A DNA stretch of 64,000 nucleotides. Source: Sphingobacteriales bacterium 46-32. GTDB lineage: Bacteria; Bacteroidota; Bacteroidia; Chitinophagales; Chitinophagaceae. The notes beneath the pieces were generated by a model that worked only from the letters and a program-made list of their open reading frames with translations, was not told the origin of the DNA and did no database searches. The translations under genes and the position numbers were made by a program. Below, piece after piece: positions 16,048 through 64,000 of the stretch. Positions within the stretch are counted from its first letter, which is position 1. Each line of letters opens with the position of its first letter. The stretch spans positions 1 through 64,000 of the forward strand of contig MKTY01000007.1 of the NCBI GenBank assembly GCA_001898485.1, written 5' to 3'.

Positions 16048-16781
16048 CTACACCGGCCCGCATCGCAATGCGGACCTACAGTTTTCTTAACCTTCTGCCT
16101 TCTGCCTTCCACCCTGCCCGCATCGCAATGCGGCCTACAGTCTTCTTAACCTTCTGCCTTCTGCCATGCCCGCATCGCATAGCGGGCCTACGGTTTTCTT
16201 AACCTTCTGACTTTTGCCATCCACCAGGTCCGCATCGCAATGCGGGCCTACGGTTTTCTTAACCTTCTGCCTTTTGCCATCCTCCCTGCCCGCATCGCAA
16301 TGCGGGCCTACAGTTTTCTTAACCTTCCACCTTTTGCCATGCACCCTGCCCGCATCGCAATGCGGCCTACAGTTTTCTTAACCTTCTGCCTTTTGCCATC
16401 CTCCATGCCCGCATCGCAATGCGGGCCTACAGTTTTCTTAACCTTCTGCCTTTTGCCATGCACCAGGCCCGCATCGCAATGCGGGCCTACGGTTTTCTTA
16501 ACCTTCCACCTTTTGCATCCACCCTGCCCGCATCGCAATGCGGGCCTACAGTTTTCTTAACCTTCTGCCTTTTGCCTTCCACCAGGCCCGCATCACAATG
16601 CGGGCCTACAGTTTTGTTAACCTTCTACCTTTTGCCATCCTCCTGGCCCGCATCGCAATGCGGCCTACAGTTTTCTTAACCTTCTGCCTTTTGCCATGCA
16701 CCCTGCCCGCATCGCAATGCGGCCTACAGTTTTCTTAACCTTCTGCCTTCCACCAGGCCCGCATCGCAATGCGGGCCTACG
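16048..16781. repeat. 13-copy hairpin-bearing tandem repeat
   Basis: About 13 tandem units of 52-60 bp. Each begins with the palindrome GCCCGCATCGCAATGCGGGC (8-bp stem, CGCA loop, with small variants that sometimes lose one G), then CTACAGTTTTCTTAACC and a pyrimidine-rich spacer ending in variants of TTTTGCCATCCACC. Spacers are near-identical, so it is not a CRISPR. Several short frames can be read through it on both strands, but they are only translations of the repeat. It fills the gap between the small protein gene and the S9 peptidase gene. Confidence 0.95.
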
Positions 16782-49936: not shown

Positions 49937-51808
49937 ATGTTAGCCAAACTACGATTAGACCAAACCAAAAAATATGAACAGGCACTTGCTACCTACGAAA
50001 TTTCGTGTATGCTGGTTGATTTTGTCTTAGGCCGCAAACATTATTTGCGGATAGGTTCAGAACAAGGTGGTATATCAAAATGGGATGATATAGTGATTGA
50101 AAAAGAACGGAATTCACAGATTCATATTCAAGTTAAAAGACAAACCTCAGGAGACTTTGGTAGTGATTTAGATGAATGCAATAGAAATGAATATAAAAAG
50201 GGGGATCGATTAGGTCAAAAACGCGACTTGTCACCTTTGGACGAAACCTTGAAAAGCTTGGCGGATTGGTTTGAAGACGTTGATATAACTACTATGTCTC
50301 CTAAAAGAGAGTTCTGGATTGAATTACCAGAACTAACTACGAAAATAAAGAAGGGGCTTCGCATAAAAGACTTAAAAGATTTATGTGATGTGCATATAAA
50401 GTCGGCTGTCACTACTGCTGCTGGTTTACAGGCTTTGGCTGATGCAGATGAAAATATCAAAAATTGCTTTGTGTGGCTTAAAAGCTGGTGTGATTTTAAA
50501 GATTGGGAACATATTTTAAATGTCTTTCAATTTCTCAAAGTCAAAAACTCCGGAATGGAGTCTGATATCGAAAGTAAAACTGAGAATAGGCTTACTGACA
50601 TATTTGTTTCAGATAAGGTGAAAGAAGTAAGATCCAGAATTACTGCCTATACTAATGAAAATACTACTTTTTCAGGAGCCATTGGGCCTCGCAATCTATT
50701 ATTTGAGCTAAAAGAATTTATTCGCTCGGATATTAATTTTTGGACACAATATGATGACAATGGTTCGCAATGGAATATATGCGGTACGCAGGATTTAGAA
50801 TTCAACTCCCAGATAGAACGATCTAGCGTCATTGTCCCGAAGCTATGGAATAATACACTTCTTAATCATTTAAAAGTAAATGCAACCTATAAGCCGAATT
50901 GCAAATTGTCTGAAAGTCTGATGCGGATAGCAATTCATCAAAGCGGCGGCAAAATGTCGTATTTCACTGGTAAGGCTGATTGGGAACATCATTTAAAGTC
51001 AAAGATTGGGAACACCCTGGGGCTTTCAGACAATGATACATCAGGTCTCAACATAATAGAAAACAATGAACGCTTTCTTTCAGCCGAAATCAGGCCACTG
51101 GTTGGTATTGCTGATCAAGAAACAGATGCAGAGGAATTGAATAAAAATATGCTTTTAATTACTTGGCAAGCTATAAAAACTAAAATGGCTGATAAGATAA
51201 GGTTACTCAATACGAATCATTCCAGCGAGCTTAGGGATGCTATGGATAACCGTTGGCGAATCTGGGTGCCCCAATTTGATGACTCACCTGAAAAACAAAG
51301 AGCCCTTTTTAGAAAAATGCTTCATCCTAATGCAGAGGGGAAGGAAATAAATAGTGATATACGGATAGGCTCCAAAACTGTAGGTATACTTACAGACGGG
51401 TTGTGGCTGTTGCTGATTGCTTCGGTTTGCCTAGATAATGACGGTAAAGGTGATTGGAATAATATGGCCGGTATATACAATGCCAATACCATTGCATTAC
51501 AATATTGGAGTGGGCTATTTGATGATAAAAAAGGCGTGAAAGAAGTAATCGAAAATTGCAAAGAAGTTATCGGAATGGAACACGCCGATTTATTGATATT
51601 TTCCAAGGTGCAGGCTTCTCATAGCGAGGTATTGGGGTTGAAAATTGATGAACCTGTTCAAAAGGAAAATACGCTGGCTGAAGGCAAACAATTAAAAATG
51701 TTAATGACATATAATATTCATCTACGCCAGTTAATTAATAAGGGAGAGATCAAAGGTATAAGCGACTATCTAAAAAATATGCTAATAAAAAAAGAAGAAA
51801 TTGCATGA
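49937..51808 (+). CDS. ABC-3C-type defence protein with PD-(D/E)xK-like nuclease domain
   Basis: 623-aa soluble protein. The first 75 residues carry SEQGGISKWDDIVIEKERN and IHIQVKRQTSGDFG, an E...DD...QVK arrangement of the restriction-endonuclease fold, as in DUF4297-type dsDNA nucleases. The rest is helical, with a long middle region of unknown fold. It begins a three-gene operon with a small protein (4-base overlap) and an SMC-like ATPase, the layout of predicted ABC-three-component conflict systems, in which this protein would be the effector. It is AT-rich compared with sbcC, which suggests horizontal transfer. Family assignment rests on motif and gene order only. Confidence 0.65.
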   Translation: MLAKLRLDQTKKYEQALATYEISCMLVDFVLGRKHYLRIGSEQGGISKWDDIVIEKERNSQIHIQVKRQTSGDFGSDLDECNRNEYKKGDRLGQKRDLSPLDETLKSLADWFEDVDITTMSPKREFWIELPELTTKIKKGLRIKDLKDLCDVHIKSAVTTAAGLQALADADENIKNCFVWLKSWCDFKDWEHILNVFQFLKVKNSGMESDIESKTENRLTDIFVSDKVKEVRSRITAYTNENTTFSGAIGPRNLLFELKEFIRSDINFWTQYDDNGSQWNICGTQDLEFNSQIERSSVIVPKLWNNTLLNHLKVNATYKPNCKLSESLMRIAIHQSGGKMSYFTGKADWEHHLKSKIGNTLGLSDNDTSGLNIIENNERFLSAEIRPLVGIADQETDAEELNKNMLLITWQAIKTKMADKIRLLNTNHSSELRDAMDNRWRIWVPQFDDSPEKQRALFRKMLHPNAEGKEINSDIRIGSKTVGILTDGLWLLLIASVCLDNDGKGDWNNMAGIYNANTIALQYWSGLFDDKKGVKEVIENCKEVIGMEHADLLIFSKVQASHSEVLGLKIDEPVQKENTLAEGKQLKMLMTYNIHLRQLINKGEIKGISDYLKNMLIKKEEIA

Positions 51809-52416
51809 AAATTGAAGAGCTAAATACATTTATTGAAAGCCACATAGAAGGACGCTTTCAAAGAGAAACTGACCCTAGTGTAGCAAATCAGTTTTTGGGA
51901 TTTGACACAAACCAAATAGGCAAAAAAGAAGTATTCCGCCTTCAGCGAATCACAAAAAATGGCAATCGCCATAACTGGAAGACATTACTTATGGTTGAAT
52001 TAAAGGACAAGGAAGATATTCAATCAGCATTACAATGGTCTGCTACAGTAAAGGATGCTCTGCTTGATCCTGAAACCGCTGATCTGTATCTGTTGATCCT
52101 ATTTGACAGCAACGATATCGACATTTCCATTGATGAATGTTATAGCATTGAATCTTCTGAAAAGTACTGCAGGAAATATATACAGAGGCCGGGGCAAGCA
52201 GCCCATGAGTTAATCGACAGGACTTTTTTAAGCAAATTGGAAGATACCCAGTTACAGGATGATGCCGTAGATCCAATTAATACAGCTATGGCTGCTACGG
52301 CAGAAAAACACCTTTGGTTCACTGTGGAGGAACAAAAAAAATGGCGTGCTGCATTATTGTCTAATGAAACAGGTAATGAATTAATAGAATCTCTTTTTCC
52401 TGAAATAAAAAATTAA
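51805..52416 (+). CDS. ABC-3C-type middle component
   Basis: 203-aa soluble, acidic protein. It starts inside the last codons of the nuclease gene (ATGA overlap) and ends two bases before the ATPase gene, so the three are one translational unit. Segments WKTLLMVELKDKEDIQSALQWSA and TADLYLLILFDSNDIDI form an alternating helix-strand pattern; the end, VEEQKKWRAALLSNETGNELIESLF, is helical. By size and position it matches the middle component of ABC-three-component systems, thought to link ATPase and effector. Confidence 0.6.
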   Translation: MKIEELNTFIESHIEGRFQRETDPSVANQFLGFDTNQIGKKEVFRLQRITKNGNRHNWKTLLMVELKDKEDIQSALQWSATVKDALLDPETADLYLLILFDSNDIDISIDECYSIESSEKYCRKYIQRPGQAAHELIDRTFLSKLEDTQLQDDAVDPINTAMAATAEKHLWFTVEEQKKWRAALLSNETGNELIESLFPEIKN

Positions 52417-52418
52417 AA

Positions 52419-55376
52419 ATGATTCATCTAAATCACATAAACATTCGAAATGCAAGGCGATTTGGGGAAAATGTCGATATTGACTTTGGTAAAGGAGCAA
52501 CCATTTTACTGGCCCCTAATGGGACTGGAAAGACAACCGTTTTTGAAGCGATTGAATTAGCACTGACAGGGAAGTTGGACAGAGTTGGAGAACCTCCGAA
52601 TGCTTTGGTCAGAGATCAGCAATCAGGCTTAGATATTCAGCTGAAATTTAGTAATGACCTAATATGTCAAGTTGCTTACCAATTGAATAAAGATCTTATA
52701 TTAAACGGTGATCACGATAAATTGTTTGGAGACAAAATTGACTCCATTCCCTATCTTTTAAGATTAACTCATCTGCTTGAACAGCGCGGAAAAGATTGGT
52801 TTGTTGGAGCGGAAGAAAATGATGCCGGTTCTCGCTTGGATAAATTGTCGATTGGCAGAGAATTGAATCATATTTTGGCCAAAAAACAGAGTATTACAGG
52901 TGCTCTTACCAAAGAACAAAAAAGGCTAGAGGATAAATTATCCAAGTCAAAGGAAATATTGGATGAATTTAAGGCCCTGCTTGCTCGGCAAAGCCAGTTC
53001 CAATCGAATGCTGAGCGTATTCCATTGTCCGAAATCATTTCACAGCTCAATAATACATGTAAGAATGCTAAGCTCGATATTAAAGCGAAGGCAGAAGATA
53101 ACGTGGATTCAGTGGCGGCATTTTTCGAGCAGATTAAATCAGCCGTCAATCAGCTAATAAGCAACAATTTATTGACAGCGAATCAGTATGCCGAATTGGA
53201 CAGCCTTATCCAATTATACTCTGATAACTTAAAAATATTAGAAACAAAAGCCAAGGAGCAAGACAATAATAACGTTGCCTTATCTGAAAAGGAAAAATCT
53301 AGATTAAATGGTCAGAAATCCTTTGACAGAGCTAATGAACAACTGCAAAATCGGGAAGCCCAATTGGATAAGTTGAAAGAAATCAGGAACTTATTTTCTG
53401 AAAGAGACATAACGATTAATGAGATAACAAATTTAAGAAAAGAGATAAATAAACAAGAAGAAATTCGAAAAAGGGATTTAGAGGATTTAAGAAAAATAGA
53501 AGATGTAATAGAAAAAACAAACAAGATTTTTGATAACTATCGATTTATAGATAATGATATTGAGAAGAACGAAAATGAAAAGTCTCTTACAGCAAAACTC
53601 TGGGAGCTTCAAAAAAAGTGGGAGCAGACTTCATCAAACATTAAAGAAATCCAAGAGGTAAAAATACCCTCGATTGAAAAAGATAAAATATTTTTAGAAG
53701 GAGCATTACTTGCTTTAAATGAAAGCTTGGCGAATGCCACTGCGGTTCGTAAGGAAAAAGAAAGGGTGTTGAAATCGTTAAGGCAAGCTTCGGGAGATAT
53801 ACAACAGGCGGTAAGTACCATTGCTTCTAATATTTCTGATGCCGCTACAGATTGTCCCGTATGTGAGGCAAAGTATAATCCAGGAGAGCTAAAGGATAGA
53901 ATAACAAGTGCCTTGAATAAGATCAATCCACTTATATCGATAGCCGTAGAGGAAGAAAGCGTAGCAATAAAAACCGAGGCCGACATTAAAAAAACGCTTG
54001 ATGAAAATAAGAGTGCCCTGGATAAAGCAAATGCTGATTTACAAGCACAAAGAAATTTGTTGACAGAATATACTGATACTCAGGAAAAGATCATAATTCC
54101 CAATTTTCCTAATTGCAAAAGCTCAGTTGAAGCAGCGAGATTCCTTGAAGAAAAAGAAAAAAATGCAAATAAAGCCATTGAAGCCCTTATTCAACGTAAA
54201 GGCAGCCTGGAGCAGAAACCAACTGAAGAATCACTGAACGAATCAAAGCTTCGAAAAGCAGAGTTAGAGAGATTAAACACTATTCACGAAGGGAAAATCA
54301 AAGCCTCAAATATCACTCTTTTGAACAAAGAGCAATCACTCAATGATTTAATGCCCAAAATTGAAAATGAATCGATCGAGAAGGTTAACGCAGATATTAC
54401 ATCAATACAAAATTCGGTAGATGAAATTAAAAATCGGGTTCGGGAATTAACACTTTCAAAAGAGACTCTTGAAAAAGAGATTAAAGAGCTAAAAAACCAG
54501 ATAATCGAATGCACTGAATTTATTGCAAAGGTAAAAAGCCAACAGGACGGTATCCAAAATAAATGGAGCAGTGCCAGGCTAGAGAATTATCCTGTCAAAG
54601 ATAGGTTAGATGAAGCGAAGAAATCACTTTCTGAAAGTCAGAATAATTTAAATGCAGTAAAGAGTGAATTAGAGAAGATTGACCAGGAAATTTCTCGGTG
54701 GCGTAGTGCGGAAAGCTATTTAAAGGTGGTAGAAGAAATCAAGACCAAAATTGCCCCTGACAGTGAAGAGGTTTATTTGGAGCGGCTAAACAGCCAAGTA
54801 ATCTCAGATGAGGCTTTAGTTAAGGATTTTGTCCTAAAACATAAAACCTTTACTGATTTTTTTGCAAATGCGAAAAAGGAACAAGACACAATACACAAGC
54901 ACATTACAGCAATTAATCCATCGTGGACAAAACTACTGAAACGGATTGTAGTTGATTCCAGATTTTCCGATGGCGAACTTTTAAGCAGTGGCACATACAG
55001 AAATAGAACTTATGCCAATATTAAAACTGCACTTCATAATAATCCCGTTGATGTTATCCGTATAGCCAGCGAGGCTCAATTAACCGACTTGCAACTCACG
55101 TTTATGCTGGCAATGGCTAAAAAACACCAATGGACACCTTGGAAAGCTTTATTGCTAGATGATCCCACTCAACACCATGACTTGGTACATGCATCTGCTG
55201 TATTTGATGTGCTTCGTGATTATATAATCGATATGGATTTTCAGATAATGATGAGTACGCATGATTCTACCCAAGCCAATTTTTTTTATCGCAAGTTGCA
55301 AAATGATGGCATAGATGCAAAAATTTACAGGCTAAATGCTGCTAGGAATGGCGTTATAGCAGAGAGATTAAAATGA
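52419..55376 (+). CDS. SMC/Rad50-like ATPase of ABC-3C-type system
   Basis: 985-aa ATPase with Walker A LLAPNGTGKTTVFEAIELAL near residue 30, two long coiled-coil arms, a central zinc-hook-like motif CPVCEAKYNPGEL near 478, and a C-terminal lobe with Walker B ALLLDDPTQHHDLVHASAVFDVL near 905, ending with the STHDSTQANFFYRKL (H-loop) segment. It is related in architecture to RecF/RecN/SbcC proteins but smaller than SbcC, and is probably the sensor or motor of the system, detecting foreign DNA structure. It is the last gene of the three-gene operon; Kiwa genes follow after 83 bases. Confidence 0.8.
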   Translation: MIHLNHINIRNARRFGENVDIDFGKGATILLAPNGTGKTTVFEAIELALTGKLDRVGEPPNALVRDQQSGLDIQLKFSNDLICQVAYQLNKDLILNGDHDKLFGDKIDSIPYLLRLTHLLEQRGKDWFVGAEENDAGSRLDKLSIGRELNHILAKKQSITGALTKEQKRLEDKLSKSKEILDEFKALLARQSQFQSNAERIPLSEIISQLNNTCKNAKLDIKAKAEDNVDSVAAFFEQIKSAVNQLISNNLLTANQYAELDSLIQLYSDNLKILETKAKEQDNNNVALSEKEKSRLNGQKSFDRANEQLQNREAQLDKLKEIRNLFSERDITINEITNLRKEINKQEEIRKRDLEDLRKIEDVIEKTNKIFDNYRFIDNDIEKNENEKSLTAKLWELQKKWEQTSSNIKEIQEVKIPSIEKDKIFLEGALLALNESLANATAVRKEKERVLKSLRQASGDIQQAVSTIASNISDAATDCPVCEAKYNPGELKDRITSALNKINPLISIAVEEESVAIKTEADIKKTLDENKSALDKANADLQAQRNLLTEYTDTQEKIIIPNFPNCKSSVEAARFLEEKEKNANKAIEALIQRKGSLEQKPTEESLNESKLRKAELERLNTIHEGKIKASNITLLNKEQSLNDLMPKIENESIEKVNADITSIQNSVDEIKNRVRELTLSKETLEKEIKELKNQIIECTEFIAKVKSQQDGIQNKWSSARLENYPVKDRLDEAKKSLSESQNNLNAVKSELEKIDQEISRWRSAESYLKVVEEIKTKIAPDSEEVYLERLNSQVISDEALVKDFVLKHKTFTDFFANAKKEQDTIHKHITAINPSWTKLLKRIVVDSRFSDGELLSSGTYRNRTYANIKTALHNNPVDVIRIASEAQLTDLQLTFMLAMAKKHQWTPWKALLLDDPTQHHDLVHASAVFDVLRDYIIDMDFQIMMSTHDSTQANFFYRKLQNDGIDAKIYRLNAARNGVIAERLK

Positions 55377-55459
55377 TTTAAAAAAGAGGGCTTTTCGAAT
55401 TTAGTACTAAAAGAAAGAGGGTATAGCTAGCTTAGTCAATTTTTAACACTGAGAAAAAT

Positions 55460-56020
55460 ATGAATATTATCAATCTATTGTTCAGGTTGTTTTTAACCTT
55501 TAATGCTACTTCATTGATTTTGGTAGTTTATTTGGTTAAAGAAAAAATAGTAATAAACAGCTGGTTGTCTTGTTTTTTAAATATGTCATATTGGTGTTCT
55601 TATCTACTGTATTTAGCTATTCCTGTTTTGTTGACATTTTTCAGTCTATTACTATCTAATAAGCTGGCCGATGACAGCATTGAAGCAGAAAGGAACCAGC
55701 CTGTAATAAAGGAAGTAGAACAAGCTAATAATGCCTATTTACCAAGTTACCTAGGATACTTTTTTGTCGCTTTAAGTGTGCCTCATTGCGACACATTGAT
55801 TTTCGTTTTTATAATTCTGTTTCTTTTCACTTTCCTGTCACAGACACTTTACTTTAATCCTTTGTTTTTAGTTTTTGGTTATCATTTTTACTATGTAACT
55901 ACTGAAACGAACATCAAAATATTCGTGATTTCAAAACGAAACCTGAAAAACCCCAAGGGATTAGGTTTCCCAAATTTGAAACGAATCAATGACTTTACAT
56001 TCATCGATAAAAACAAATAA
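55460..56020 (+). CDS. kwaA: Kiwa antiphage protein KwaA
   Basis: 186-aa membrane protein with four hydrophobic helices: residues about 5-26, 40-66, 95-112 and 113-145. It has the KwaA-like segments ANNAYLPSYLGYFFVALS and LSQTLYFNPLFLVFGYHFYYVTT and the soluble end LKRINDFTFIDK. KwaA is the inner-membrane sensor of phage attack in Kiwa defence and works with KwaB, whose gene begins four bases later. The assignment rests on recognised sequence pattern plus gene order. The gene is AT-rich like the ABC system before it. Confidence 0.82.
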   Translation: MNIINLLFRLFLTFNATSLILVVYLVKEKIVINSWLSCFLNMSYWCSYLLYLAIPVLLTFFSLLLSNKLADDSIEAERNQPVIKEVEQANNAYLPSYLGYFFVALSVPHCDTLIFVFIILFLFTFLSQTLYFNPLFLVFGYHFYYVTTETNIKIFVISKRNLKNPKGLGFPNLKRINDFTFIDKNK

Positions 56021-56024
56021 AAGT

Positions 56025-56843
56025 ATGAATCACCTTTTAGCAAAAACGAAAGGCCGAAATGGAGACTTTTTTAAAGTAATTTCAAACAGACAGATTTTTG
56101 ATATTCCTGATGACCTAAATAATGGAATTGAGTATAACTCCGATTATAAGCTCGAAGATGACGAATGGTTTGCAATCACTGAGTTTTCTGAAAAGGAATA
56201 CTGCCTTGATTTTTTAATGACAAGATTTGTATCAACAGATTACAACCAGCTTTCAAGAGCGGGGTATCATAATATAGATTACTTAGTCGCTTATCAATCC
56301 GGAGTCTATTGCTTTCAAAAGTTACACCCAAGTCAGTTTATTAGAAAAAGATATTTTTCAATTTCGGACCAACCCGATTTAGAAAATACTCCAATCATTA
56401 TAATTAACCAAATTCCTGATGCGATTTATGTACGTGAGGAAGACACACTATACTTTAGAAAGTTACCTGCAATAACAACCATATTTAAGGGTATTTATGA
56501 ACTTTATAAAGAAGCAACACAAGAAGAGACTGAAGCTTTTCTGGAAAATAATTTCGTAAATCTAATTGATGATTTTAGCGCAGATACGGTAAAAAAAGCA
56601 AATAGAAAGCGTATTGCAATGGCTCAGGCAACGCTACAAAATTTTAACCGACGGGAGAAGAAGCAAATATTTAGCTACATCAGAGAATATTGTGCAGACC
56701 TGGAATTTGATGAAGACGCAGAGAACTTTTCAATATCAAATGAGGAGGATTTGAAGAAACTACTTTATGGTATTGAACAGCGCTACTATACGACAAAAGT
56801 AGGTAATGAAAAGCGATTAGCTAACTCCGTTATACCAGTCTAA
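56025..56843 (+). CDS. kwaB: Kiwa antiphage protein KwaB
   Basis: 272-aa soluble DUF4868-type protein. Seen are NQIPDAIYVREEDTLYFRKLPAITTIFKGIYELYKEAT, then EETEAFLENNFVNL and the positively charged KKANRKRIAMAQATL, typical of KwaB. KwaB binds DNA and blocks phage replication and late transcription after KwaA senses infection. The frame extends upstream to ATG 55989 inside kwaA, but ATG at 56025 (MNHLLAKTKGR) is four bases after the kwaA stop and is the likely start. The cargo ends soon after, at an inverted repeat. Confidence 0.82.
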   Translation: MNHLLAKTKGRNGDFFKVISNRQIFDIPDDLNNGIEYNSDYKLEDDEWFAITEFSEKEYCLDFLMTRFVSTDYNQLSRAGYHNIDYLVAYQSGVYCFQKLHPSQFIRKRYFSISDQPDLENTPIIIINQIPDAIYVREEDTLYFRKLPAITTIFKGIYELYKEATQEETEAFLENNFVNLIDDFSADTVKKANRKRIAMAQATLQNFNRREKKQIFSYIREYCADLEFDEDAENFSISNEEDLKKLLYGIEQRYYTTKVGNEKRLANSVIPV

Positions 56844-57099: not shown

Positions 57100-57530
57100 C
57101 TATTTCTTTTCAATCAACTTCTCCAGCTTGTCGATCATTTCCTTTTGTTGTTGCAGCATACGTTCGTATAACTCCGCCATTTTATCAAGGGGATTGAAAG
57201 TTGGTGTGTTGTTTATAATGCTTGCAAATTGTGGACTGGAATGGTCGTGATTGTTGAAAGTATTTGAAATGACGTTTATCGCAGCTTCCTCATCAAAATT
57301 CTGGAAAGCCTCAACAGGTATTTTTAATACCGCAGAAATTTGTTGCAACAGGGGCGCATCAATAGTTTCCTTTTGCTCCAGCAGCGATACTTTTTGCTGG
57401 TTCCAGTCGTCGCCCAGGTCTGCAGCCAGTGCATCCTGCTTGATGCCCAGCATTTCGCGGAAGCGTTTAATCCCGATAGTTCGGGACGTCCTTCGTGTAT
57501 CCTACTGGGTGTAGTAGCAGCATGTGTCAT
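57100..57530 (-). pseudogene. XRE-family helix-turn-helix regulator, frameshifted
   Basis: A minus-strand HTH gene split into two frames. The 5' part (ATG at 57530) reads MTHAATTPSRIHEGR; then CCCGAACTATCGGG (57472-57485) interrupts, and the protein continues in another frame as IKRFREMLGIKQDALAADLG, DDWNQQKVSLLEQKE and so on to a coiled-coil tail (LDKMAELYERMLQQQKEMIDKLEK). The 14-base insert is a hairpin (TCCCGA/TCGGGA). Removing it joins EGR directly to IKRFRE in frame. The intact gene would have encoded a regulator of about 135-140 aa, divergent from the Wadjet operon. Confidence 0.78.
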
Positions 57531-57672
57531 AGCAGCAAATTTTCTATGTAAATAACCAGCAGGCGTTATTACAAACGATTATGAAAATATGCCTACTTAT
57601 GATTAAATTTTTACTTGTAAAACATTTTACCAGGCTATTCATAGCCTGCCCGGTCACCTAAAAGTTGTAAAT

Positions 57673-59139
57673 ATGACCTTCGAATCCCTCCTCCAGCAAT
57701 TTAAAACGGCCCGGCCCCTGCTACTGTTGCGGGCAAGGAATGCGCCATTTATCATCTCCTTCCTGCACAAAGTATTTGCCGATGCCCATACCACCACTAT
57801 TGCTAATAGCGAGCTACGTAGCAAGCTGGAAGGGTATATGGAAGACCTGTCTTACGAAGAAAAGGACGAAGAGCTCGATGCCACTACCCTCTTCGACGAC
57901 TTTGCCCTGAGGGCCGCCCAATACATCGACAAATGGAGCAACAGCGGCTACCTGCGTAAATATCCGGGCGACGATGGCGAAGACCTGCATGAGCTCACAC
58001 CCGATACCATCAAAGTACTGAAATGGCTGGAAGACCTGGCCCCACGCGAACATATAGGCACCAACAGCCGGTTTAAAGATATATTTTTTAAACTGCAAAA
58101 GATGGTGGAACAAACCAACGAAGACCCTGAAGCCCGCATAGAAGAACTGCAAAAAAAGAAATGGGAAATAGAAAATGAGATCAACCTCATCAAAATGGGC
58201 AAAAAACCCAACGTGTTTGATGAAACGGAAATTAAAGAGCAGTTCTACGACCTCAATAAAATGGCCCGCGAGCTGCTGGCAGATTTTTCGGAAGTGGAGC
58301 AAAACTTTGAGCAGATACGTAAGGACATACAACGAAAATATACCGAACGTGACATAGCCAAAGGCACCCTGCTGGTATTTGCGCTGGATGCGCTGGACGA
58401 CATAGATCAAAAGCCGCAGGGAAAAAGCTTTAAAGCCTTTTGGGAATTTTTAATGAACGAGAATCGGCAACAGGAGTTTAGCGCACTTACCGAGCGGCTA
58501 TACCAGATGCTGGCCGAAAACAATATTGACTACAATAACGACAAATTCCTGAAAAACCTGAAACGTTACCTGCACGTATCCGGGCGTAAAGTAATTGATG
58601 CCAACAAAAAACTAAGCGAAAAAATAAGCCGTGTACTCTCCGAAAAAAACCTGCTGGAGCGCAGAAGGGCCATGGAACTGATTGGCGACATACGGCAAAT
58701 GGCTTTTGACCTTATGGACACTAAAATAAAAGAGGAGCAGTTTATTACCATTGAAGACGAGCCGGCCATTAACCTTTTCGATCGCTGGCAACCCGGCGAA
58801 GAGCGGGATATGGCTACTGCGGTATTGTTTCCCGACAGCAGCATCGGCGAAGAAGAGGAAGTGGACTTTACAGCCCTGTTTGACCAGTTTACCATTGATA
58901 AAAAAAAGCTGCAACAGCGTATAGAACAAATGCTGGAAACAAGAGACCAGGCAACGTTAAAAGAGATCGTAGATACTTATGGCATAGAGAACGGCCTGAG
59001 CGAAGTGGTGGGTTACTTTTCGTTGGCCACCGAGAGCAGCCACCACATTATTATAGAGGAAGCCCGAGAGCCGATACTGGTGGGCGACCGGTGGGTAAAC
59101 GTGCCCATGATTATTTATACAAAACCAAATGTACACTGA
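57673..59139 (+). CDS. jetA: Wadjet protein JetA (DUF3375)
   Basis: 488-aa kleisin-like subunit of the type I Wadjet anti-plasmid complex, matching MukF in role. The start MTFESLLQQFKTARPLLLLRARNAPFIISFLHKVF and the following ANSELRSKLEGYMEDL match DUF3375. A coiled-coil linker lies at residues about 150-215, followed by helical segments and a C-terminal winged-helix-like part. It is the first gene of jetABCD and overlaps or abuts jetB. Base composition is nearer to core than the ABC/Kiwa block. The regulator divergent from it is broken. Confidence 0.9.
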   Translation: MTFESLLQQFKTARPLLLLRARNAPFIISFLHKVFADAHTTTIANSELRSKLEGYMEDLSYEEKDEELDATTLFDDFALRAAQYIDKWSNSGYLRKYPGDDGEDLHELTPDTIKVLKWLEDLAPREHIGTNSRFKDIFFKLQKMVEQTNEDPEARIEELQKKKWEIENEINLIKMGKKPNVFDETEIKEQFYDLNKMARELLADFSEVEQNFEQIRKDIQRKYTERDIAKGTLLVFALDALDDIDQKPQGKSFKAFWEFLMNENRQQEFSALTERLYQMLAENNIDYNNDKFLKNLKRYLHVSGRKVIDANKKLSEKISRVLSEKNLLERRRAMELIGDIRQMAFDLMDTKIKEEQFITIEDEPAINLFDRWQPGEERDMATAVLFPDSSIGEEEEVDFTALFDQFTIDKKKLQQRIEQMLETRDQATLKEIVDTYGIENGLSEVVGYFSLATESSHHIIIEEAREPILVGDRWVNVPMIIYTKPNVH

Positions 59140-59140
59140 T

Positions 59141-59740
59141 ATGGAACCGAAAATGCAAAGGGCGCCCTACGCTGCCGCTATTATTAAACTGCTGCAGGGA
59201 CCGGTGTATGCCGATGATAAAAACACCTGGCGTGAAATACTTGGCTGGCAATCGGCCATACAGGAATACTTTGGCAAAATAGGACTACAGCTAACCATTA
59301 CCGAGCAAGATGGCTTTGCCCGGGTGCTGCAGCCAGAAGCAGCCGAGGATGAAGAGCAACCCTTGCCCCGCCTGATGAAAAAGCAGGCACTAAACTACGA
59401 GGCCACCCTGCTGGCTGTAATGCTACGGGAAGGCTTGGAAGAATTTGATGTACGCAGCGATGGCACCAAATACTTTCTGACACAAAAAGAGATCAAAGAA
59501 CGCATTGAACTGTTTTACAAAGAGCAAACCAATAAAAGTAAGCTGTGGCGCGACCTGTCCAAACCCATTACCGCCCTGCTCAGCATCGGTATCCTCAAGC
59601 TCAACCGCGAAGATGCGGCTAACAAAGACAACAACCAGTACGAAGTAAAACGTATTGTAAAAGCATTCATCAGCAACGAAAAGCTGGAAGAAATAAAACA
59701 AAAGCTCGCCAACTATGTCCACACTATTCAGCAACAATAA
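59141..59740 (+). CDS. jetB: Wadjet protein JetB (DUF4194)
   Basis: 199-aa MukE-like subunit of the Wadjet complex that binds the kleisin JetA. The DUF4194 pattern is visible: YAAAIIKLLQGPVYADDKNTWREILGWQSAIQEYFGKIGLQL near the start and LNYEATLLAVMLREGLEEF in the middle. ATG at 59141 (MEPKMQRAPYAA) is one base after the jetA stop; an ATG at 59129 inside jetA gives four more residues and is also possible. Its 3' end overlaps jetC by 26 bases. Confidence 0.88.
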   Translation: MEPKMQRAPYAAAIIKLLQGPVYADDKNTWREILGWQSAIQEYFGKIGLQLTITEQDGFARVLQPEAAEDEEQPLPRLMKKQALNYEATLLAVMLREGLEEFDVRSDGTKYFLTQKEIKERIELFYKEQTNKSKLWRDLSKPITALLSIGILKLNREDAANKDNNQYEVKRIVKAFISNEKLEEIKQKLANYVHTIQQQ

Positions 59741-62700
59741 TACAGACAATGGCTACAGGCTGCGATACCTCGAAATATTCAATTGGGGCACATTCAACGG
59801 TAAAGTGCACAAACTACAGCCCAATGGGCGCACCTCGTTGCTTACCGGTGCTAACGGCAGCGGCAAAACGACGCTGATCGATGCGCTGCTCACCATACTG
59901 GTACCCACCGGCAAACGGTTTTACAACCAATCATCGGGGGCCGAATCGAAAAAAGAGCGGGATGAGAACTCTTACTTCTGGGGCTACTATGGCAAAACTT
60001 TTTCCGAGCTGGAAGACAAATCAAAAACCGAGCAATTGCGGCAAAAAGCCGATAACCCTTACTCCGTGCTGCTGGCTTGTTTTCAAAACTCGGGTACACA
60101 ACATACCATATCGCTGGTTCAGGTAAGGTGGTACAACAATGGTGGGTTGCAAAAAGTATTCATCATAGCCCCCTACCTGCTCAACATCGATGACCATTTT
60201 GGGAAAGACCATTTTGATTTTCGGGGTGATTGGAAAAAGAAACTTAAAAACCAGTTTCCCAAAACAGAACTCTACAACAGCTTTAAAGAATATGCTGCCC
60301 ACTTTAGCGAAACCTTTGGGTTAAAAGATAAAGCCTTGTCGCTCTTTAGCCAAACGGTGGGTATTAAAGTACTGGGCGATCTGACCAACTTTATCCGGCA
60401 GGAAATGCTGGAAGAATCCGATGCCGAAGAGCAATTTAAAAACCTGCATGAGCATTACAGCGACCTGCTGGTCAGCCATAAAGCCATACAGAAAGATGAA
60501 AAACAACTGGAGCTGCTTACACCCATTATTACCCATAAAGAAACGCTGTATGCCCAGCGCAGCGGTAAAGCCCAGCTCGATTTTGTGGAAGAACAAATGC
60601 CCTTCTATCTCAATAAAACAGAGTATGAGCTGCTGGCCGCACATATCAGCCAGACAGAGCGGGACGCCACAGTCGCCCGGGAAGAAGAGCGACTTGCCAC
60701 AGAAAAAATAAAGGCCCTGGAGCAGGAAAAAGATCAACTGACCACTCAAAAGGCCGCCCTCAACATAGATCACCAGGTAACCCTACTAAACAAGGATGTA
60801 GCGACTGAGACGGGCAAAAAAAATGACAAGTCTGCCGCGTATAATATATATGAAACCACCTGTAAGCAATTGAATCTGGACATGCCTGGAGACAGCAATG
60901 AATTTAACGAAAACTATAATCAGGCGAAGACGCTAAGTGCAAACCTGCCCAAAGAACTGGAAACGCTTTTGGATCAAAAAACGAGATGGAAAATTGAACA
61001 GGAAAGCACAGAGCAAAATATTAAAGATTTACAACAGCAAATTAACTCGCTAATGGAGCGGAAAAACCGCATTCCCGATGAACTCGTACAGGTCAGGAAA
61101 CGCCTGACGGAACTGCTGGACATAACAGAAGCTGAGCTTCCTTTTGCCGGAGAGCTGATAAAGGTATTGCCGGCAGAACAAAAGTGGGAAGATGCTATTG
61201 AGCGACTGTTACATAATTTTTCCATGCAATTACTGGTACCCGAAAAATTTATAAAGTCCGTCAATTATTTTATCTATAACAATGACATGCGCACCAAACT
61301 GGTGTACCAGAAAGTAGAGCAGAAAAGGGTGCAGCCACTCCGATGGCCCACGGATGAAGATGACCTGGTTAATAAACTCGAATTCAAAGAATCGGGTTTT
61401 AAGGACTGGATAGAAACTGCCTTGCTGGAACGATTCAACTATTACTGTACCGATGACCTGGAAGTGTTTTACGGATCCCAAAAAGCCATTACCTCCAATG
61501 GACTAATGCGGAATGTAAACCGCCATGAAAAAGATGACCGTCCCGGCAAATGGCATAAAGGAAAATACCGCCTGGGATGGGATAACCGCGAAACCATAAA
61601 ATACCTGCAACAAGAGAAAAAGCAGGAAGAATCAAACTATGAGCATCTTGGCGGTAAAATCAGGCAAATAAACCCACGGATAGACGCCATTAATAAAACC
61701 ATACATGCTGTCACCAACATACTCCGCTATCAAACCTACGACGAGATAGATTGGCAGCGGCATGCGGAAAAAATAGTATCGTTGAACAAACAGATAGATG
61801 AACTGAAAAAATCATCGCAGGCTTACGAGATCATAGTTGGGCAGATAAAGGAAGTAGAAGCAGGACTAAATTCGGAACGTGACAAGAGAGACGAGCTAAT
61901 AGGGAAAATAAAAACACTTGAGCGAGAGTATAATGATAAAAACGCCAGATTGCTAAACCTGGATTTTGAAGCACTAACCGATGCCGGTACACAGGCTATC
62001 CAAGTATTTATGCAGGAGGAAAAAATGGACATCAGTAACGAGCAAAGCCTGGCTGCGTTTGAAACGATAATGCGGCAAATTGCCGGCAGGTTGAAAGCGA
62101 GACAGAAAGCTGCTACTGAAGCCGTCAATCAACTGGAGCAAAAGATTATAAAAGACATGGCGGCTTTTGTACACCCTGAGGAGAAAATAATACGAGAGTT
62201 TCCAAGCTGGCAGGGCGATGTGATCAATATCAGCGCTGATCTTAAAAGCATAGAGGATATTGAAGAACTCTACAACACTATACAAACGCAGCGCCTGGTA
62301 GAGCATAAAAAAAGGTTCCGCGAATACATGGATAAAAGCATGCTGGACGCCCTTACCAGTTATCGCACCTGGCTGGACAATGAGCTGGATAAGATCAAGG
62401 ATATGATTGACGAGCTGAACGTTCCTTTAAAGAAAATCACGTTCAACCGAAATCCCGACACCTACCTGCAACTGGAATACCGCCCGTTACGCGGTGAAAA
62501 CGAAATCAATATCTTCCGCAGGCAACTCAGCGCAGCCATACCCAATGCGTTGGACTTTGCTACGCAGCAGGATGACAACTACAGGGAACAGGTATTTGAG
62601 AAAATAAAAAATCTCGTTACCGAACTGCAAAAAGAAGAAGCCTGGCGCAGGAAGGTAAGCGACGTACGCAACTGGCTCAGCTTTGGCGCAAGAGAATACT

Positions 62701-63110
62701 CTATGGCGGAAAACAGGGCGGAGCAATACCACGACAACACGGCCAGCTATTCGGGTGGACAAAAGGCACAGTTCACCTATGCCATCCTGGGAGCAGCCAT
62801 TGCACACCAATTTGGTATCTTTCAGCAGGGACGGCAGCACAAAAGCCTCCGCTTTATAACAGTAGACGAGGCCTTCAGTAAGCTAGATCCTGAGAAAAGT
62901 CGTTTCTTAATGGAGTTTTGTGAACAGCTCAACCTGCAAATACTGGTAGTAACTCCATTGGACAAAATAAATATTGCAGAACCCTATATTCATGCCGTGC
63001 ATTTTGTGGAGATTAAAAACAAGAAAAACTCTGTGCTGCATAACCTTACGATGGAACAATACTATAAGCAAAAAGAAAACTTTAAACAAGTAACGGAAGA
63101 AACAGAATGA
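59715..63110 (+). CDS. jetC: Wadjet SMC-like ATPase JetC
   Basis: 1131-aa MukB-like ATPase that extrudes DNA loops in the Wadjet complex. Walker A is LLTGANGSGKTTLIDALLTIL near residue 45, long coiled-coil arms cover about 280-470 and 640-880, and the C-terminal lobe has the ABC signature YSGGQKAQFTYAILGAAI and Walker B ITVDEAFSKLDPEKSRF. With JetAB it probes DNA size and topology so that small plasmid circles are cut by JetD. The stop overlaps the start of jetD (ATGA). Confidence 0.93.
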   Translation: MSTLFSNNNTDNGYRLRYLEIFNWGTFNGKVHKLQPNGRTSLLTGANGSGKTTLIDALLTILVPTGKRFYNQSSGAESKKERDENSYFWGYYGKTFSELEDKSKTEQLRQKADNPYSVLLACFQNSGTQHTISLVQVRWYNNGGLQKVFIIAPYLLNIDDHFGKDHFDFRGDWKKKLKNQFPKTELYNSFKEYAAHFSETFGLKDKALSLFSQTVGIKVLGDLTNFIRQEMLEESDAEEQFKNLHEHYSDLLVSHKAIQKDEKQLELLTPIITHKETLYAQRSGKAQLDFVEEQMPFYLNKTEYELLAAHISQTERDATVAREEERLATEKIKALEQEKDQLTTQKAALNIDHQVTLLNKDVATETGKKNDKSAAYNIYETTCKQLNLDMPGDSNEFNENYNQAKTLSANLPKELETLLDQKTRWKIEQESTEQNIKDLQQQINSLMERKNRIPDELVQVRKRLTELLDITEAELPFAGELIKVLPAEQKWEDAIERLLHNFSMQLLVPEKFIKSVNYFIYNNDMRTKLVYQKVEQKRVQPLRWPTDEDDLVNKLEFKESGFKDWIETALLERFNYYCTDDLEVFYGSQKAITSNGLMRNVNRHEKDDRPGKWHKGKYRLGWDNRETIKYLQQEKKQEESNYEHLGGKIRQINPRIDAINKTIHAVTNILRYQTYDEIDWQRHAEKIVSLNKQIDELKKSSQAYEIIVGQIKEVEAGLNSERDKRDELIGKIKTLEREYNDKNARLLNLDFEALTDAGTQAIQVFMQEEKMDISNEQSLAAFETIMRQIAGRLKARQKAATEAVNQLEQKIIKDMAAFVHPEEKIIREFPSWQGDVINISADLKSIEDIEELYNTIQTQRLVEHKKRFREYMDKSMLDALTSYRTWLDNELDKIKDMIDELNVPLKKITFNRNPDTYLQLEYRPLRGENEINIFRRQLSAAIPNALDFATQQDDNYREQVFEKIKNLVTELQKEEAWRRKVSDVRNWLSFGAREYSMAENRAEQYHDNTASYSGGQKAQFTYAILGAAIAHQFGIFQQGRQHKSLRFITVDEAFSKLDPEKSRFLMEFCEQLNLQILVVTPLDKINIAEPYIHAVHFVEIKNKKNSVLHNLTMEQYYKQKENFKQVTEETE

Positions 63111-64000
63111 TAACGCCACAGGAACTTCTGGATAAATCGGACAAACACTTCTTTAAAATAGCAGGTGCTGTATTAAAGGATGAAAATCCTTTTCCCCTGG
63201 TGATCCCATCCGACAAAAAGATACAAGACACTGGTTTTAATAACCTGCAAAGTGCCCTCATACCACTTTATAATCACTCAAAAGACAAAAAAGGTAAGGG
63301 ATACACCATAGCATGGAAAACAAAAAACATACAAGGTTCTCAACAGAAAATTCCCGCTAAAATATATTATGAAACCCTGGAAGACTACCTCTTTTTTACG
63401 AAGCGTGAAAAAGACTTTTCGAAAATAAAAGGAGTGTACGAACTAATTGCGACTTCCTTTCCACTCAATGCCGCCTGGGCAAAAGAAGAACCTGCTTTTC
63501 TTTTAACCTACGCAGCCATCATGCCCGACCTGCTAAAAGTGGTCCGTTATTTCTTTGACCATACGCCTCCCCATCAGCTTTACTTACGTGAGTTGCCGAT
63601 ACAGGTACACACAAAGTTTATTGAGGATAATACGAAGCCCTTAAAGAAGATGCTGGATATAATGTTACCTGCCGACAAGATCAACTTTGAAGAAAAAGAC
63701 TTCTTCGGTCGGTATCAGGTAAAACGGCCCAATATCTATACGCAGGTCAGGGTACTGGATGATGCACTAAAATCTACGTTGGGCTACCATGAACTGGCGC
63801 TTACCATTGATGATGCCGCCTTGCTCACCTGGCAGCCAGAAAAGGTATTTATCATTGAGAATGGAGCTTGTTTTCGGTCCTTTCCTAAAATAAAAAGCAG
63901 CGTGGCCATTTTTGGGGAAGGCTTTAAAAGCCGCGTCAACAAATATATTCCCTGGCTGGCCGATTGTGAGCTCTATTGCTGGTTTGATATGGATGCCGCT
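63107..64000 (+). CDS. jetD: Wadjet nuclease JetD (DUF3322/DUF2220), partial
   Basis: The first 298 codons of the plasmid-cleaving subunit; the gene runs off the right edge. It begins MITPQELLDKSDKHFFKIAG and reads in frame to the window end. The DUF3322 part occupies residues about 1-190. The Toprim-like nuclease part starts with FIIENGACFRSFPKIKSSVAIFGEGFK, whose glutamate in IENG and aspartates in WFDMDA near the edge fit the topoisomerase VI-like active site. The start overlaps the jetC stop by four bases. Family members are usually about 400 aa, so about 100 residues are missing. Confidence 0.88.
   Translation, partial: MITPQELLDKSDKHFFKIAGAVLKDENPFPLVIPSDKKIQDTGFNNLQSALIPLYNHSKDKKGKGYTIAWKTKNIQGSQQKIPAKIYYETLEDYLFFTKREKDFSKIKGVYELIATSFPLNAAWAKEEPAFLLTYAAIMPDLLKVVRYFFDHTPPHQLYLRELPIQVHTKFIEDNTKPLKKMLDIMLPADKINFEEKDFFGRYQVKRPNIYTQVRVLDDALKSTLGYHELALTIDDAALLTWQPEKVFIIENGACFRSFPKIKSSVAIFGEGFKSRVNKYIPWLADCELYCWFDMDAA

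Follow-up and report, generated by a model that had tools for sequence, protein, structure and literature searches.

The window analysed here, a 64-kb stretch of DNA, carries a complete type I Wadjet system in which jetA, jetB, jetC and jetD follow one another in order, all of them open (Table 1). Divergent from this operon, across a gap of 142 bp, lies a broken gene for a small HTH protein, which we call the regulator. A second defence-like cassette adjoins Wadjet at positions 51805-56843 and comprises an ABC-3C MComp1 protein, an SMC-like ATPase of 985 aa that matches LmuB, and an ORF of 284 aa for which Pfam gave no match.

Table 1. Features of the regulator-Wadjet locus (window coordinates).
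Feature	Position	Strand	Basis
Disrupted gene of a small XRE-type HTH protein (PADLOC HTH_VI)	57100..57530	-	ORFs, homologous loci, HTH_VI E 4.6e-5
Residual open frame of 117 aa, starting at an internal ATG, without nearly all of HTH helix 1	57100..57453	-	
16-nt palindrome TCCCGA-N4-TCGGGA, whose 14-nt core (57472-57485) replaces the Asn codon of the scored relatives	57471..57486	.	
5' coding piece of 15 codons, MTHAATTPSRIHEGR, original frame kept	57486..57530	-	
Intergenic region common to the broken gene and jetA; inverted repeats form a putative operator	57531..57672	.	
Inverted repeats within 57531..57672: TTTTAC/GTAAAA and CAGGCTAT/ATAGCCTG	57609-57622 and 57631-57648		
jetA (DUF3375)	57673..59139	+	JetA1 E 2.4e-138
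jetB (DUF4194, MukE-like)	59129..59740	+	JetB1 E 1.2e-60
jetC (MukB-like SMC ATPase)	59715..63110	+	JetC1 1050 bits
jetD, crossing the window end; 379 aa, complete in the contig	63107..64000	+	JetD1 E 1.4e-115

An earlier sequence-only reading had the HTH gene interrupted at 57472-57485 by CCCGAACTATCGGG (minus-strand reading), and both the sequence and the ORFs agree that the frame is lost there. These 14 bases lie within a perfect palindrome, TCCCGAACTATCGGGA, with a stem of 6 bp and a loop of 4 nt. Translation from the ATG at 57530 gives MTHAATTPSRIHEGR, then departs from the family frame and ends at 68 aa in total; the remainder of the protein is open in a different frame, from the ATG at 57453. 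The same reading held that removal of the 14 bases would restore exactly an intact family member, which is wrong by one residue: the restored protein would lack an Asn that is present in 95 of 95 other homolog stretches. Since all scored relatives have this codon, the change is a replacement (three bases out, 14 in, net +11) rather than a clean insertion, and it falls in helix 1 of the DNA-binding domain. The notion of a short palindrome inserted into coding sequence therefore holds in that a palindrome disrupts the frame, but not in its simplest form, as an invariant codon was replaced. At the level of sequence, then, the regulator site displays codon replacement and frame loss; the truncated product is probably non-functional, and the break is probably recent.

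Homologs of the regulator are common in Bacteroidota, with a match at E <= 0.001 in 93 of 294 Chitinophagaceae genomes. A scan of named genomes was cut to the best 80 of 502 loci, and 114 fetched loci (duplicates and the window's own locus included) had a match. By motif search, an Asn codon was found between GR and [IV]KR in all 95 other distinct homolog stretches (54 AAT, 41 AAC), the search demanding the downstream KR motif, so that homologs broken there would escape it. Asn was also invariant in 51 of 51 aligned homologs, taken from the 75 that passed a simple ORF test. In the alignment with intact homologs, which had been proposed as a check, it is the window site that lacks the codon. 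Intact relatives measure 133-140 aa (seven aligned). Among the 80 named homologs the ORF test scored 75 as intact; L108 was intact but longer, and L038, L056, L089 and L109 had a broken or atypical N-terminus. L109 (Gynurincola), L089 and L056 are regulator homologs additional to those discussed below.

A structure model of the homolog L040 (mean pLDDT 72.9, per-block values of 85-91 for residues 11-70) indicates that intact relatives have an XRE-type multi-helix DNA-binding domain, with predicted helix 1 at residues 13-24, the Asn at residue 16 and the internal Met at residue 23. The window's own gene does not encode a complete HTH domain, its frame being lost in helix 1. Foldseek matched the model to the 434 repressor and C.BclI in the PDB with probability 1.00 and E-values of 0.0035-0.007, none of them reaching 0.001 (best 0.0035). 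The predicted fold accordingly resembles 434/lambda repressors and the C proteins of restriction-modification systems, with E-values that are weak, from 0.0035. What the regulator shares with XRE/lambda-repressor-like proteins, C proteins and HTH_VI is this predicted multi-helix domain and the HTH_VI profile match; it differs from them by a predicted extra C-terminal helix (L040 residues 109-136). A PDB sequence search with L040 gave no match, NCBIfam has no family for the regulator, and the truncated ORF, the one form of the regulator run against Pfam, had no match there.

The regulator might nevertheless still work, either from the start at ATG 57453 or through ribosomal frameshifting at the hairpin, and indeed the 117-aa frame is open and resembles relatives, and dN/dS between two broken copies (see below) is less than 1. 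We find this improbable. The internal ATG lies past nine invariant residues, H12 to E22, and as the internal Met corresponds to residue 23 of L040, whose helix 1 is predicted to span residues 13-24, an internal start would delete nearly all of helix 1 along with these residues. Homologs sharing the insertion and using a programmed frameshift, which would have told against the sequence-only reading, were not encountered: the palindrome occupies the Asn site in none of the 95 other homolog stretches, which makes a conserved programmed frameshift unlikely. By eye, no slippery context was seen at the hairpin, and a recent break accounts equally well for dN/dS below 1.

The second broken copy belongs to Gynurincola endophyticus (L038), the only other organism with Wadjet beside a homolog within the fetched flanks, which for the 80 named loci reached no further than about 3 kb. 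Its Wadjet proteins are close to those of the window (JetA 90% and JetC 85% identical), and its regulator is broken by two TGA codons in the N-terminal stretch that matches the window's break region; the hairpin is absent from this orthologous locus. When the two broken copies are compared, dN/dS comes to 0.35 for the whole frame and to 0.20 for the 62 aligned codons at its start (10 synonymous and 8 nonsynonymous changes), both from small counts, whereas the comparison with the intact homolog of genome G119 gives 0.025, at saturated dS. The value of 0.20 suggests selection during part of the time since the broken copies split, and both losses may be recent. As the ratio for the intact homolog is much smaller than that for the two broken copies, constraint may equally have been relaxed following an older break.

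These observations bear on the proposal of the sequence-only reading that the regulator repressed Wadjet, so that its loss deregulates the operon. In its favour, the divergent layout, across 142 bp in the window, is kept in Gynurincola, the regulator model is akin to phage repressors and restriction-modification C proteins, and Wadjet-linked copies have been broken independently in two of two cases as opposed to three broken or atypical copies among 79 others (Fisher p 0.003, in a post hoc comparison that comprises two cases and ignores kinship). On the other hand, regulator homologs adjoin many unrelated genes. Their upstream neighbours included one JetA among 61 scanned (of 80; 25 of 52 PADLOC families listed). 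For 50 downstream neighbours the 25 families listed, out of 371, included AriA (four matches), Septu PtuA (three) and restriction subunits (two). Nor was a shared operator found: the pattern TTTAC-N0-8-GTAAA, chosen from the window, stood in the upstream region of 3 of 81 loci (the window's among them) and in 1 of 80 control regions. Moreover, loss of the regulator fits equally well with a regulator that is not needed at Wadjet, or with an activator. Given such diverse neighbours, repression of Wadjet is a guess, and one that we hold to be possible yet somewhat doubtful. Regulators of the BrxR/WYL type are likewise co-located with defence systems, Wadjet included, but as described in PMC9122601 they carry a WYL domain and belong to a different protein family from the window regulator. 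Because the regulator was lost in parallel beside Wadjet in Gynurincola, a simple experiment on its part in Wadjet control would be worthwhile.

We now turn to the hairpin. TCCCGA-N4-TCGGGA has a single site in the 64-kb window and none in 100 shuffles of it, and the predicted fold energy of the hairpin as single-stranded DNA is -6.2 kcal/mol (z -2.15; equalled by 6 of 200 shuffles). The genome as a whole holds 32 copies against 2 for the reversed control pattern. This search had been put forward to find the hairpin at other gene positions; inspection of the surroundings of all 32 copies located 30 of the 31 others in decayed copies of tRNA genes rather than in protein genes. The degenerate tRNA-gene copies that hold these 30 hairpins are often tandem, and most adjoin an intact tRNA gene; besides the regulator site, the one exception is a chance match in the gene for SprA. 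Examples are seven copies of a 123-bp hairpin-bearing unit downstream of tRNA-Met and 4.4 copies of a 108-bp unit downstream of tRNA-Phe, while a pair of Asp-type copies lies some 5 kb from the tRNA-Asp gene.

Comparison of hairpin flanks with tRNA genes reveals what the hairpin has displaced. A script assigned 26 sites by matching their flanks to a tRNA gene, allowing up to 3 mismatches over 22 flanking bases, and four were assigned by eye; one further own-genome pairing, with 6 mismatches, was left out. At the 26 script-paired sites the loss amounts to 3 nt in 17, 4 nt in seven (six of them in one array) and 8 nt in two, although these are not independent events, representing about a dozen tRNA sites, and the script, run with 33 tRNA genes from this genome and G051, favours a 3-base gap among equal matches. 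At the 17 sites of 3-base loss, GAC, GTC, GAT, ATC, GCC or GTT is replaced by the 16-mer. Because the search uses exact arms, it misses decayed copies and in part presupposes that the arms are constant. As far as the sequences go, the motif is thus in excess in this genome and replaces few bases, most often three, in tRNA-gene copies.

Other repeats accompany these arrays. In a tRNA-Ala copy (L126, 3195-3301), seven 13-nt TCCCGA...TCG units are followed by one full hairpin, a run that could stem from 3-for-16 swaps occurring repeatedly or simply from tandem duplication. Other GC-rich hairpins, such as CCCGCC-N-GGCGGG, replace D-arm or anticodon-arm sequence in tRNA copies of L122, L120, L126 and L118 (by eye), and the genome has 21 matches to CCCGCC-N1-6-GGCGGG but 0 to its control. 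The window itself contains, at 16058-16778, another type of hairpin-bearing repeat, with tandem units of about 60 bp that each include the hairpin GCCCGCAT-CGCA-ATGCGGGC or a trimmed form of it.

In light of this family, we consider it probable that the regulator gene was hit by a dispersed micro-palindrome, which replaced about three bases and inactivated the DNA-binding domain. In such an event a family member of 16 nt, with arms TCCCGA/TCGGGA and a variable 4-nt loop, would have reached the fourth codon of helix 1 and displaced some three bases, the invariant Asn codon, and the net gain of 11 would have shifted the frame and thereby inactivated the domain. The net change of +11 differs from the +13 (3 out, 16 in) of the commonest tRNA-copy site, and the regulator site fits the 3-for-16 rule only if the outer T and A of the palindrome are flank or were lost; for this reason it is not proved that the mechanism here was that of the tRNA sites.

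Alternatively, slippage during replication or a template switch could have created the palindrome on the spot, its likeness to the family being a coincidence or the outcome of a shared mutational bias. Alignment with the G119 homolog lends itself to this reading, as the ancestral AAC falls in the hairpin loop and leaves gains of 4 and 7 nt, and so does the variation of loops, of which none is common to G051 and the window genome in four of eight tRNA site groups. However, the exact 6-nt arms are those of a motif in excess both in this genome (32 versus 2) and in 100 genomes of the family (350 versus 15), and the 95 scored homolog stretches show a plain Asn codon at the site. We therefore think formation in place unlikely, and descent of the regulator hairpin from the dispersed family the better inference. 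Far less likely still is a sequencing or assembly error: although there is a single assembly, and two other hairpin copies lie within 100 bases of contig ends, the error would have had to delete a conserved codon and produce, without a single mismatch, the motif that the genome has elsewhere, deep inside a 146-kb contig.

Open frames over hairpins were present at 10 of the 13 loci examined, and following up three of them (SprA, TilS and PabB) yielded no second protein gene broken by a hairpin. An in-frame insertion in SprA (L123) was rejected, because its nearest relatives have a PPDTTG-like sequence of equal length, and this copy is thus the chance match, 1 of 32, mentioned above. The TilS copy, in genome G057, is largely ordinary sequence, in which APEV aligns with SPEV at the extreme end of solved TilS, where the alignment stops, residues beyond being outside its coverage. 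The PabB copy lies by a 2-residue gap within a poorly aligned stretch.

On a wider scale, TCCCGA-N4-TCGGGA turns up at least once in 162 of the 294 genomes of the family and in 219 of the 395 of the phylum; in the many genomes with one or two matches these may be due to chance. The first 100 of the 294 family genomes (G000-G099) together have 350 matches as against 15 for controls, with at least five in 13 genomes and none in 50, and the distribution of the motif across Bacteroidota is patchy. Two genomes of the same genus as the window's differ, with 24 matches in G051 and 2 in G137, and the low number in G137 weighs against the arrival of the regulator hairpin from a dispersed family. In G051 the hairpins sit at tRNA sites identical to those of the window genome, and at least one loop is shared in four of the eight site groups; in an unshared case, an Arg copy, the loop reads AATT in one and TGCT in the other (window genome and G051 compared). 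In G057, 26 of 60 copies were examined: many lie within other short repeats, no hairpin of the tRNA-copy type was noted by eye, and in repeats of the GCAAAGAC or CACAGAGA kind GAC or GTC is often missing (by eye, uncounted).

A bolder and tentative idea, to which we give rather low credence, is that TCCCGA-N4-TCGGGA is a still-spreading micro-element of Bacteroidota with an insertion chemistry of its own, in which about three target bases would be exchanged for a 16-nt palindrome with fixed arms and a variable loop. Its preferred targets would be T-arms and D-loops in tRNA gene duplicates, with an occasional hit in a protein gene such as the regulator; small GIY-YIG nucleases, whose genes lie among hairpin-bearing tRNA copies, could contribute to the machinery, or the hairpin could protect these copies from them. 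Across the first 100 of the 294 family genomes, PF01541 (GIY-YIG) matches and hairpin counts correlate with a Spearman coefficient of 0.49, which ignores kinship and genome size. In the window genome, all five PF01541 matches outside long frames (504 and 613 aa) are in hairpin-bearing tRNA arrays. As a driver, however, a GIY-YIG nuclease was set aside, given that most hairpin arrays are without such a gene and that 31 hairpins go with just 2 matches in G248, but a single hairpin with 18 matches in G283; with these clear exceptions the correlation is a lead only. At L122 3124-4384 (C19, about 258623-259883), four small GIY-YIG ORF copies, one of them short, occur among two hairpin-bearing tRNA-Pro copies.

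How does the hairpin compare with known palindromic elements? The Rickettsia element RPE-1 is about 100-150 bp long and usually keeps the reading frame; the window hairpin differs from such elements in being 16 nt long and, at net +11, out of frame. What they have in common is a palindrome inside a coding gene, Rickettsia palindromic elements being described as occurring within coding genes (PMC3733652). The nearest described relatives in kind are the CGTC-tagged REPs, short dispersed palindromes present in many bacteria, also in Bacteroidetes, some of them inside genes (Di Nocera et al., 2013, PMC3733652). As presented there, CGTC REPs have a 4-base tag, stems of 8-9 bp that start with AT pairs and a CCA-like tail, and apparently lack a dedicated transposase (PMC3733652). 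Our hairpin is like CGTC- and GTAG-tagged REPs in being short, dispersed and in one instance within a gene, as some of those are (PMC3733652), but it has no CGTC tag, a 6-bp TCCCGA/TCGGGA stem and no constant tail, and the bases beside the 16-mer are host sequence that differs between sites. Likewise, no constant tag of the kind seen in GTAG REPs with RAYT was seen by eye beside the 32 genome copies. In open-licence papers we recognised no description of this hairpin or of the tRNA-copy arrays, though one may be in print.

Taken together, the locus provides a concrete case of a defence-island regulator gene that a 16-nt palindrome has disrupted, and illustrates that very short repeats can switch off genes. 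Because intact tRNA genes in this genome preserve the empty sites, one can put the replacement rule, with 3 out and 16 in as the commonest case, to the test. Should the family prove mobile, it would rank among the smallest mobile DNA units and call for an as yet undescribed mechanism.
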